Origin: Methanohalophilus mahii DSM 5219
Lineage (GTDB): Archaea; Halobacteriota; Methanosarcinia; Methanosarcinales; Methanosarcinaceae
DNA: 64,000 bases
Assembly (NCBI RefSeq): GCF_000025865.1
Contig: NC_014002.1
Span: 62,001-126,000 of the forward strand
Direction: 5' to 3'
Position numbers and translations under genes: made by a program. Below the pieces are notes generated by a model. That model did not search any database. It had not been told where the DNA came from and worked only from the letters and a program-made list of their open reading frames with translations. This document shows positions 4,801 to 60,624 of the stretch, piece by piece. The stretch's first letter is position 1, and the number at the start of each line of letters is the position of its first letter.

Positions 4801-4857
4801 GCGTCAATGGTTGTTTAACACAATGTTTAAATGATATTAAAACTAATATATTTTTTG

Positions 4858-5970
4858 ATGTTAAGGGCTTACAAGTATAGAATGTATCCTGATGAAAATC
4901 AAATTGAAATGTTCCATAAACATTTTGGGGCATGTAGATACATCTATAATTGGGCGTTGGAAAATAAAATTAAATCTTATGAACAGGAAGGCAAATCGAT
5001 TTCCAGATTTGAACTGAATGGGAAAATTCGGATGTTGAAAAGGGAGTTTGAATGGTTGAAAGAAGTTAATTCTCAATCATTGCAAGGGGCAACTTTGAAT
5101 CTGGATAATGCGTTTACACGATTTTTCAGGGAGAAGAAGGGGTTTCCCAAATTTAAATCAAGGAAAAATCCAGTGCAATCATTTTCTGTTCCACAACATT
5201 ATCAAGTAGATTTTGAGAAAAATAAAGTCAAACTCCCAAAAATCGGATGGATTAAAACAAAATTACATAGAAATTTTGAAGGTGTATGTAAAACTGCAAC
5301 TGTTTCTAAAACGTCTACGGATAAGTATTTCATTAGTATTCTTGTGGATGGTGGTAAAGAATTACCTGTTAAACAAGAATTTGATATTGATACAACTATA
5401 GGAGTAGATGTGGGGATAAAAGATTTTGCCATTATGTCAAATGGTGATAAAATTGAAAATCCAAAACATCTTAAAAACACAATTGAAAGATTAAAGGTGC
5501 TGCAGCAACGGTTGTCCGGAAAGGAAAAGGGTTCTGCAAATAGACAAAAAGCAAAGTTAGCAGTAGCAAAACTTCATGAGAAGATTGCAAACCAAAGAAA
5601 CGATTTCCAACATAAATTATCACATAAGTTGATAAGCGAGAATCAAGCAATTGCATTGGAAACATTGAATGTTAATGGTATGCTTAAAAATCATTGTCTT
5701 GCACAAAGCATAAGTGATGCTTCATGGAGTTCATTCGTATCTAAATTAGAATATAAAGCAGAATGGTGTGGTAAAACTGTTTTGCGGATTGGACAATTTG
5801 AACCAAGTACGAAAATTTGTAATGTGTGTGGTTTTCATAACAAAAACATCACACTTTCAAACCGTAACTGGCAATGTCCTGATTGTGGTACAAAACACGA
5901 TAGAGATGTAAATGCTGCAATCAACATTAAGAAGTTTGCTTTAAATAAGCAGAATTTAATAGGTATTTGA
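4858..5970 (+). CDS. tnpB: TnpB RNA-guided nuclease (IS200/IS605 or IS1341 type)
   Basis: A 370-residue TnpB. After the N-terminal KYRMYPDENQ come the RuvC residues: Asp in GVDVGIKDF, Glu in ALETLNVNGM and the final Asp in HDRDVNAAINI, with the zinc-binding pairs CNVC and CPDC between the last two. All three acidic residues are present, so it may be active. TnpB proteins cut DNA under guidance of an RNA made from the right end of the element and help keep the element at its site. No tnpA transposase is present, so it belongs to the TnpB-only type. ATG at 4858 (MLRAYKYR) is preferred over an upstream start at 4831, as it matches the family N-terminus. Confidence 0.92.
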   Translation: MLRAYKYRMYPDENQIEMFHKHFGACRYIYNWALENKIKSYEQEGKSISRFELNGKIRMLKREFEWLKEVNSQSLQGATLNLDNAFTRFFREKKGFPKFKSRKNPVQSFSVPQHYQVDFEKNKVKLPKIGWIKTKLHRNFEGVCKTATVSKTSTDKYFISILVDGGKELPVKQEFDIDTTIGVDVGIKDFAIMSNGDKIENPKHLKNTIERLKVLQQRLSGKEKGSANRQKAKLAVAKLHEKIANQRNDFQHKLSHKLISENQAIALETLNVNGMLKNHCLAQSISDASWSSFVSKLEYKAEWCGKTVLRIGQFEPSTKICNVCGFHNKNITLSNRNWQCPDCGTKHDRDVNAAINIKKFALNKQNLIGI

Positions 5971-10888: not shown

Positions 10889-10900
10889 TTAATATATTAA
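10889..10900 (+). promoter_or_regulatory. TATA-like box of small RNA copy 1
   Basis: TTAATATATTAA, 29 bases (centre to first G) before the GGGGCAG that begins the structured element. Sequence and distance match the boxes before copies 2 and 3. Confidence 0.5.
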
Positions 10901-10922
10901 GGAAACGAATATTAATTACATA

Positions 10923-11020
10923 GGGGCAGAATTAAAAGCAGCTTTCGTATCGTACCACCACCACCACTATACCACTGTCTGTTTTTTTCCAATATCCTGC
11001 CCCTCATAACTTCATTTTTT
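10923..11020 (+). ncRNA. Candidate small RNA of a three-copy family (copy 1)
   Basis: Starts GGGGCAG (10923-10929), which pairs with CTGCCCC at 10997-11003. Inside, AAAAGCAG can pair with CTGTTTTT, leaving the core CGTACCACCACCAC in the loop. A T-run (11015-11020) follows the closing stem. It shares the core, the CTGTTTTTTTCCAATATCCTGCCC-like 3' half and the upstream TATA-like box with copy 2. On the other strand the 3' end overlaps the stop of a decayed ATPase tail, so an alternative is a 3'-UTR element or a small mobile repeat. Confidence 0.5.
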
Positions 11021-11180
11021 GACGTTTGATCATATCTGCCAGACCAATCAGAATCACTCCTTCTTCCTCTGCAATCTCCCGCATCCGTGGAGTAAAGCCA
11101 GTCCGGCTTATCAGGGCGAAATGTCCTAGTTTTCAGGAAATTGAGTTCATCGGCCTGATTCATAAATTTACGAAATATGT
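11004..11180 (-). pseudogene. C-terminal relic of a DUF234-type archaeal ATPase
   Basis: On the minus strand, FALISRTGFTPRMREIAEEE, then GVILIGLADMIKRQKMKL and TGA (11004-11006), matches the C-terminal endonuclease-like part of archaeal AAA ATPases with DUF234 (typically ...SKSGFTEEL...NVLLxDLEDL). A preceding piece, MNQADELNFLKTRTF, lies in another frame. No ATPase domain remains. Confidence 0.5.
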
Positions 11181-41732: not shown

Positions 41733-41744
41733 TTAATATATTAA
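41733..41744 (+). promoter_or_regulatory. TATA-like box of small RNA copy 2
   Basis: TTAATATATTAA in the context TTAGGTTAATATATTAA, shared with copy 1. The centre is 31 bases before GGGCAGG. Confidence 0.5.
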
Positions 41745-41769
41745 GAAAAACATAATGGTACATATAGTA

Positions 41770-41871
41770 GGGCAGGACTAAAAACGGATCCAAACTCGTA
41801 TCGTACCACCACCACTATACCACTGTCTGTTTTTTTCCAATATCCTGCCCGATCACTATTTTACTATTTTT
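41770..41871 (+). ncRNA. Candidate small RNA of a three-copy family (copy 2)
   Basis: GGGCAGGA at 41770 pairs perfectly with TCCTGCCC (41843-41850). Inside, AAAAACGG pairs with CTGTTTTT; copy 1 has AAAAGCAG at the same place, so pairing is kept while bases differ. Loop core CGTACCACCACCAC. Two T-rich stretches (ATTTTAC and CTATTTTTG) follow. No reading frame of note. Shares TATA-like box, core and 3' half with copy 1, over 50 of about 60 bases in the 3' part. Confidence 0.55.
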
Positions 41872-59183: not shown

Positions 59184-60335
59184 ATGTTTCTCACTAAAAC
59201 AGTTATCTTGAAAATAGCAAATCCTGATAATGATTTAGTGGAAACTATGAAGAAATATTCTGATGGAATGAACTATGCTTCTGAAGTTCTTTTTGATAAA
59301 GGTAAACCAATTCCAGCGATGAAATTACAGCAGGAAGTTTACCCATATCTTCGTGAAACATTAAAATTGAAATCCCAGATGAGTTGTAACATTCCAAGAC
59401 AGGTGGCAGGGTGTTACAAAACATTAAAAAAACAGAAAAAGGCAAAATGGCAAAAAGTAGAATTTTCGCCATCATCCATGACTTTTTCTTACAAAAGGGA
59501 TTTTGTGATTGATGAAGACACGGTCAAAATAACTACTATCAACGGAAGAAAAGCATATTCCATTTTGAATTATGACTACGCTAAACAGTATTTTGAGGGC
59601 TCATGGAAATACCAGGCATCCAAAGTTGTAAAACATAAAGACGGAGATTATTATTTCCATTTATCTCTTGAAAAGGAAGCTCCTGACAAAGAAATAACAG
59701 ACGCTTCTACTTTCATGGGTATAGATGTAGGTATGAACTATCTTGCTGTTGCTTCCACTACCGACAGGAAATGTAGTTTTTTTGCTGGTGGTGAAATTAA
59801 GAATCTTCGCAACCAATACAAATCAATGCGAAAGCGTTTACAATCGAAGGGAACTTTATCTGCAAAACGAATGTTGAAATACATTTCAGGTAAAGAGAAA
59901 CGTCTTATGCGAGATGTAAACCATACAATCTCAAAAGAAATTGTGAAATTCGCAGTTAAAAACAAAGTATCAGTAATAGGTCTGGAAGATTTAACAGGAA
60001 TACGTGATTCCACTCTTTCCAAAGTTTCCAAAAAGAGAAGACATAACCACAGTAGTTGGGCTTTCCGGCAATTACAAACATTCATTGAATACAAAGCAAA
60101 AGAAGTAGGCATAATCACTCATTATGTTGACCCATCCTATACTTCTCAAACTTGTATTCGATGCAATCATATCTCTAAGAATAACCGTAACAGATTGTCT
60201 TTTAGATGTGAAAAATGTGATTATGCGAATAATGCAGACCTAATCGGTGCAATGAATATTGAACACAAAACACGGGATTACAGGTATATCCTGGAATCTC
60301 AGGGGTGCTTGTCAGCCACCCAGACGAATGCTTAA
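59184..60335 (+). CDS. tnpB: TnpB RNA-guided nuclease (IS200/IS605 or IS1341 type), second subfamily
   Basis: 383 residues. RuvC residues: Asp in FMGIDVGMNYLAVAS, Glu in VIGLEDLTGIRD, final Asp in NNADLIGAMNI; zinc pairs CIRC and CEKC. All key residues are present. It is only distantly related to the tnpB at 4858. No tnpA. The left end hairpin (59101) and the right end (60348) are similar to each other and share a GTAA/GTGA loop. A 3' relic of the same subfamily lies at 12715-12888. Confidence 0.93.
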   Translation: MFLTKTVILKIANPDNDLVETMKKYSDGMNYASEVLFDKGKPIPAMKLQQEVYPYLRETLKLKSQMSCNIPRQVAGCYKTLKKQKKAKWQKVEFSPSSMTFSYKRDFVIDEDTVKITTINGRKAYSILNYDYAKQYFEGSWKYQASKVVKHKDGDYYFHLSLEKEAPDKEITDASTFMGIDVGMNYLAVASTTDRKCSFFAGGEIKNLRNQYKSMRKRLQSKGTLSAKRMLKYISGKEKRLMRDVNHTISKEIVKFAVKNKVSVIGLEDLTGIRDSTLSKVSKKRRHNHSSWAFRQLQTFIEYKAKEVGIITHYVDPSYTSQTCIRCNHISKNNRNRLSFRCEKCDYANNADLIGAMNIEHKTRDYRYILESQGCLSATQTNA

Positions 60336-60375: not shown

Positions 60376-60498
60376 TAGAGGCCCAGGTTCCTATTGCTAC
60401 AAACGAGGTTTTACTTTTTGTGCAGGCTATCCTGTGTATAAGTATATTTTTACTAATATCCATCAAAATTTGATGTATAGTATACATCATGATTACAT

Positions 60499-60510
60499 TA
60501 ATATAATAAG
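60499..60510 (+). promoter_or_regulatory. TATA-like box of small RNA copy 3
   Basis: TTAATATAATAAGG, followed by AAAAAATAATC, 31 bases (centre to G) before GGGCAGG. It resembles the boxes of copies 1 and 2 including the AAGGAAA that follows. Confidence 0.45.
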
Positions 60511-60533
60511 GAAAAAATAATCTTCTATTGTGG

Positions 60534-60615
60534 CGGGCAGGGTCTGACTCAGTTTCGTACCACCACCACACAACGACCTGTTTTTTAGGATACCTGCCCG
60601 TCCAGGATATTTTTT
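60534..60615 (+). ncRNA. Candidate small RNA of a three-copy family (copy 3, diverged)
   Basis: CGGGCAGG (60534-60541) pairs with CCTGCCCG (60593-60600). The loop core TTTCGTACCACCACCAC and a CTGTTTTTT stretch are kept, but the sequence between is different and shorter than in the other copies. TATTTTTTG (60609-60616) follows as a T-run. Unlike copies 1 and 2 it has no ATPase relic next to it, so the element does not depend on that gene. Confidence 0.5.
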
Positions 60616-60624
60616 GTAGTTTCA

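Follow-up and report, generated by a model that had tools for sequence, protein, structure and literature searches.

Putative small RNAs of Methanohalophilus mahii and related Methanosarcinales carry a loop complementary to surface-protein ribosome-binding sites

The 64-kb window analysed here, from the genome of Methanohalophilus mahii DSM 5219 (a single contig of 2,012,424 bases, 2.01 Mb), contains three copies of a short element, termed A RNA, whose coordinates and covariance-model scores are shown in Table 1. All three copies display the core CGTACCACCACCAC without mismatch and on the + strand, against a chance expectation of 0.15 in the window (two mismatches or fewer allowed), and none of 100 shuffles reached three. 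The order of parts reported in the first-pass annotation, comprising TATA-like boxes, GGGCAG(G)/CCTGCCC arms and CTGTTTTTT, was confirmed in the window, but the T-run that had been placed directly after CCTGCCC lies instead ~5-20 bases beyond the 3' arm. The stem described there is present and covaries, but forms the outer of two helices in the RNA. Similarly, the three window copies are real but do not represent the whole family, as exact CGTACCACCACCAC cores occur at five places in the genome, on one strand only, and three further relatives (C1:1426746, 1556901 and 1562807) bring the total to at least eight members. Five own-genome copies fold with z-scores of -3.3 to -5.4. Copy 3, at 60.5 kb, is the most degenerate, presenting no inner helix and a score of 25.8 bits versus ~53 bits for copies 1 and 2.

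Table 1. Copies of the putative A RNA and associated elements in the 64-kb window.
Feature	Position	Strand	Stem, loop or basis	Covariance-model match
TATA-like promoter box TTAATATATTAA, copy 1	10889..10900	+	shares the family's TATA-like octamer ~31-37 nt 5' of the stem	
A RNA copy 1	10922..11004	+	stem arms 10922-10929/10997-11004; core loop 10951-10964	10924-11002; 53.4 bits, E 1.1e-8
TATA-like promoter box TTAATATATTAA, copy 2	41733..41744	+	sequence, family promoter scan	
A RNA copy 2	41770..41850	+	stem GGGCAGGA/TCCTGCCC, 41770-41777 with 41843-41850; loop 41802-41815	41770-41850; 52.9 bits, E 1.4e-8
TATA-like promoter box TTAATATAATAA, copy 3	60498..60509	+	sequence	
A RNA copy 3	60532..60602	+	outer stem GGCGGGCAGG/CCTGCCCGTC; core loop 60556-60569	60535-60599; 25.8 bits, E 0.0074
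T-rich tract 3' of copy 3, possible transcript end	60608..60616	+	sequence	

The window copies share 190-430 bp of flank among themselves and with copies in two relatives, and are lineage-specific duplicates within a stretch that holds IS605-type genes. Two TnpB genes of this type are found in the window, at 59184-60335 and 4831-5970, the former ending ~160 bp 5' of the copy 3 promoter box. A segment of ~73 bp located just 3' of copy 1 (11033-11105) resembles, at 81%, the segment 42594-42665 that stands behind a PemK/MazF-like toxin gene (42.3-42.6 kb); the two are likely shuffled remnants.

A pattern search of 186 Methanosarcinales genomes with CGTACCACCACCAC identified the core in 19 genomes from four genera, while the reversed-sequence control produced one match. 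Core-bearing taxa in the named scan comprise Methanohalophilus, Methanococcoides, Methanomethylovorans and one Methanosarcinaceae bin. The first-pass annotation had proposed a covariance-model search of the order and a comparison with Rfam as checks. The model, built without window-type copies, recovered window copies 1 and 2 and revealed A RNA in 59 of the 186 genomes, spanning seven genera confined to one family, with stem pairing retained, while no Rfam family was identified at the elements under either gathering or relaxed thresholds. A RNA is a predicted structured RNA family, undescribed and without an Rfam counterpart. No model match was obtained among the genomes searched of genus g13, nor was an orthologue found there 5' of glyS; from gene content, we take g13 to be Methanosarcina and g10 to be Methanolobus. 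A 14-base scan of viral contigs yielded at least 80 loci, and none of the 80 listed matched the model. The ancestral site, present in five genera, is flanked by a dUTPase/ADH-synthase pair on one side and glyS-hef on the other, with A RNA divergent from glyS and sometimes in 2-4 tandem copies spaced ~190-360 bp apart. In G091, a transposase-like gene (L081, 5390-6331) is located between tandem copies. Copies outside the ancestral site have unrelated neighbours (DUF5611/radical SAM, PAS kinase, TnpB).

Alignment of 49 distinct sequences revealed an outer stem with 97% of cells paired and double changes at 8 of 9 pairs, and a weaker inner stem (75%). Over the whole structure, 15 of 17 pairs display double changes and covariation is 0.406 versus 0.187 for shuffled alignments, with none of 500 shuffles as good and slid controls likewise far below the real value, in an alignment that was fitted to the covariance model and therefore favours the structure. 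RNAalifold recovered an identical outer stem from the same alignment. Outer stems differ considerably across the family (GCAAGACC/GGTCTTGC, GAGCAAGGTC/GACCTTGCTC and the GGGCAGGA/TCCTGCCC type), and one paralogue presents a wholly different 17-bp stem, AATAGGTGAATAAAGTT/AACTTTATTCACCTATT, with the same loop. The loop UAUCGUACCACC is almost invariant, the number of ACC units being variable; a second Methanococcoides copy displays the loop UAUUGUACCACC, which fits the GGUGGUACAAUAUG form of target. Every one of the 50 copies has a TATA-like octamer upstream (6 or more of 8 positions), located at 26-36 nt in 43 of them (median 31), whereas 3 of the 50 have one in place on the antisense strand, in a scan that broke score ties in favour of positions near 31. 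The 40 nt 3' of the stem contain 47% T on average. A coding role for the element was rejected, since 5-base insertions beside the loop mean that the surrounding reading frames are not kept.

Read as its reverse complement, the A RNA loop gives GGUGGUAC(G/A)A. In genera with A RNA this sequence stands directly 5' of the AUG in many genes for exported surface proteins, the majority of which are PEF-CTERM (archaeosortase) substrates. Pairing of the loop with Shine-Dalgarno-like GGUGG leaders, anticipated in the first-pass annotation, is in agreement with this exact, predicted complementarity to ribosome-binding sites in sister genera. With A and B RNA sites left out of the count, the pattern GGTGGTACRAN{0,5}ATG gave ~46 sites among 22 A RNA-bearing genomes versus 17 in the reversed control, whereas 11 genomes without A RNA presented 5 sites and 5 control sites. 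Forty sites were read: 16 precede proteins with signal peptides, as judged by eye, 6 precede a CxxC protein and 3 other genes, while 3 are codon coincidences in subtilases and 12 are without a real gene. Many target proteins end in PEF...RR/K tails, and the one tested is a PEF-CTERM protein by TIGR03024 (38.5 bits).

In a motif-independent test, homologues of this TIGR03024-positive protein were collected by protein sequence. GGTGGTAC was found before the start codon in 16 of 23 homologues from A RNA genomes, the other 7 lacking it, versus 0 of 8 from genomes without A RNA (p 8e-4), a significance inflated by kinship, since shared ancestry links the target genes, and likewise the genera that bear the RNA, so that the counts are not independent. 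The corresponding loop-leader duplex energies are -17.6 and -11.9 kcal/mol, respectively, and the background occurrence of GGTGGTAC is 1 of 200 other genes. The same leader recurs before several unrelated surface-protein families. In many targets an A occupies the position at which the common A RNA loop would require G, leaving 8 continuous pairs. A GGTGGTACGATATGGAACTTG start site precedes a small CxxC protein encoded directly behind a PEF-CTERM gene (L210, L211), and the GGTGGTAC start site is observed in a CxxC...C...C family of 48-53 residues (L168, L175, L210, L211, L277, L280, L286, L289, L292 and L305). The GGTGATAC control in A RNA genomes identified few real start sites, none recognised as PEF-CTERM. 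In the M. mahii genome itself, neither a PEF-CTERM protein above the cut-off nor a convincing surface-protein leader with the exact motif was found; one short conserved gene, also present in G106, displays GTGGTGGTACACATG at its start. The PEF-CTERM genes of g13 (L401, L407, L410, L413) have a different leader, CTGGAAAG(T/C)AGGGGTA(G/T)ATT-ATG, at which a further sRNA or other regulator may act. Two g10 PEF-CTERM genes without the motif (L394, L409) present CCGTAC...GTACGG(A/G)GGGGGTAAA 5' of the start codon; this hairpin adjoins the Shine-Dalgarno sequence and may exert cis control.

A search with the loop reverse complement, GGTGGTACGA, which also returned antisense matches on A RNAs, revealed two kinds of intergenic site: true start sites and candidate B RNAs, small RNA-like units whose own TATA box lies on the other strand. 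The latter expose GGUGGUACGA, to which the A RNA loop is exactly complementary (L183, L185, L186, L189, L190, L192-L196, L198, L200, L202-L208, L215, L218), and fall into several Methanolobus families, a single G091 family and three Methanohalophilus paralogues, whose longest common block is GGTGGTACGA. In some Methanolobus copies the motif lies between CCATAT and ATATGG arms, and in G091 it forms the loop of a stable hairpin; two Methanolobus B RNAs folded in isolation displayed no significant folding. Since the loci were found through the motif, its presence is no independent evidence, unlike the architecture and promoters of the units, which are. Candidate B RNAs may be decoys. An operator-like palindrome of TCATNATNATGA type, located just 5' of the TATA box, is found upstream of A RNAs of Methanococcoides and Methanohalophilus (L005, L007-L017, L020, L088), of B RNAs of Methanolobus and G091 (L185-L198, L218) and of some target PEF-CTERM genes (L216, L229/L297), which suggests one common transcription factor. 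A metal (Fur-like) regulon was rejected: the palindrome recurs, but its sites identify no such regulon.

The reading that we favour, at a probability of roughly two in three, is that A RNA is a trans-acting sRNA that masks the ribosome-binding sites of surface-protein mRNAs and represses their translation, with candidate B RNAs as decoys. From these sequence features we infer that A RNA genes would be transcribed from their own TATA promoters into ~75-95-nt sRNAs ending near the T-rich tract, in which the covarying outer stem and the weaker inner stem would present the near-fixed loop UAUCGUACCACC(ACC)n. This loop is predicted to pair with GGUGGUAC(G/A)A-N(0-5)-AUG of exported surface-protein mRNAs, mainly encoding PEF-CTERM sorted proteins together with the small CxxC protein, whose gene, in the cases seen, stands close to or behind one for such a sorted protein. 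Pairing would cover both the GGUGGU Shine-Dalgarno sequence and the start codon; because the loop matches these sites letter for letter, A RNA probably switches translation off. Candidate B RNAs exposing GGUGGUACGA would probably titrate A RNA as decoys, and in M. mahii the multiplied copies probably act likewise on other leaders or on two B-like RNAs. Overall, the sRNA reading put forward in the first-pass annotation appears to be supported. A wider envelope-control circuit, in which sibling A RNAs repress an archaeosortase-substrate regulon, B RNAs mimicking the GGUGGUACGAUAUGG start site soak up A RNA and one factor drives all, is proposed tentatively, with the balance against it; as A RNAs, B RNAs and some targets share the TCATNATNATGA-type operator, the regulator, its decoy and its target would be under joint control of a single transcription factor.

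Alternatively, A RNA may be a genuine structured sRNA whose loop binds a protein or acts on B RNAs alone, the leader match merely reflecting the ribosome-binding-site style of the clade. This explanation, which we consider unlikely, is consistent with an invariant loop portion (UAUCG) that reaches past the 8 bases matched by most targets and agrees more closely with the B RNAs (GGUGGUACGAUAU), and with the presence of B-like RNAs but not of PEF-CTERM leaders in the M. mahii genome; it accounts poorly for GGTGGTAC, which seldom precedes other genes of these genomes and is found repeatedly at surface-protein genes of unrelated families. The main alternative in the first-pass annotation had been a MITE-like repeat. 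Such a short, mobile inverted repeat would have spread in an IS-rich region and have no RNA function, and the lineage-specific window copies with their shared flanks and proximity to TnpB genes speak for it. Ancestral synteny of one copy (glyS/ADH synthase) across five genera, together with covariation in the form of double-sided stem changes, nevertheless makes it very unlikely, and the loop remained fixed while the stems diverged, the TATA box is at a fixed distance and a 600-bp search around the three window copies reported no short direct repeats. A role in cis, as a leader or attenuator acting on the downstream gene (a riboswitch-like element, for example), agrees with the ancestral copy adjoining glyS in every syntenic genome but is hardly credible for an element that is divergent from glyS, lies on the other strand with its own TATA box, has unrelated neighbours elsewhere and occurs in tandem copies.

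In its proposed mode of action as a repressor of surface-protein translation, A RNA resembles the bacterial envelope sRNAs OmrA/B, MicA and RybB, in which a conserved seed covers the start sites of many surface-protein mRNAs and for some of which decoys exist. Those RNAs are Hfq-dependent and their seed is commonly at the 5' end; the likeness concerns mode of action alone, homology not being claimed. Among archaeal sRNAs, Methanosarcina mazei sRNA162 masks a ribosome-binding site inside an operon through a single-stranded region (PMC3510493) and is, like A RNA, an intergenic sRNA of the same order with a region that pairs with ribosome-binding sites. By description the two are set apart, sRNA162 acting through a linker on a transcription-factor target (PMC3510493), in contrast with the stem-closed fixed loop of A RNA. 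M. mazei sRNA154 and sRNA41 also display anti-ribosome-binding-site sequences in loops or single-stranded regions, sRNA41 masking several sites of polycistronic mRNAs (PMC5867862). Their described targets belong to nitrogen and acetyl-CoA metabolism, whereas those predicted for A RNA are surface proteins, and they are not described as multicopy (PMC5867862), while A RNA is. The Methanosarcina genomes searched, representing the genus of sRNA162, sRNA154 and sRNA41, are without an A RNA match. Many carriers of A and B RNAs belong to Methanolobus; in one species of this genus, Methanolobus psychrophilus, nine conserved cold-induced sRNAs share a promoter-upstream motif (PMC5378194), as the B RNAs do, and the cold-induced sRNAs may include A or B RNAs.

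Targets are known for few archaeal sRNAs, and the ones cited above control nitrogen or energy metabolism in Methanosarcina. On the simplest reading of the sequences, what would be new in comparison with the Methanosarcina sRNAs that mask ribosome-binding sites is the surface-protein regulon and the possible decoys. If the proposed role of A RNA is correct, it would constitute a clade-wide, multicopy sRNA family with a coherent regulon of sorted surface proteins that can be read from sequence, accompanied by apparent decoy RNAs, and RNA control of the archaeal cell surface would become directly testable.
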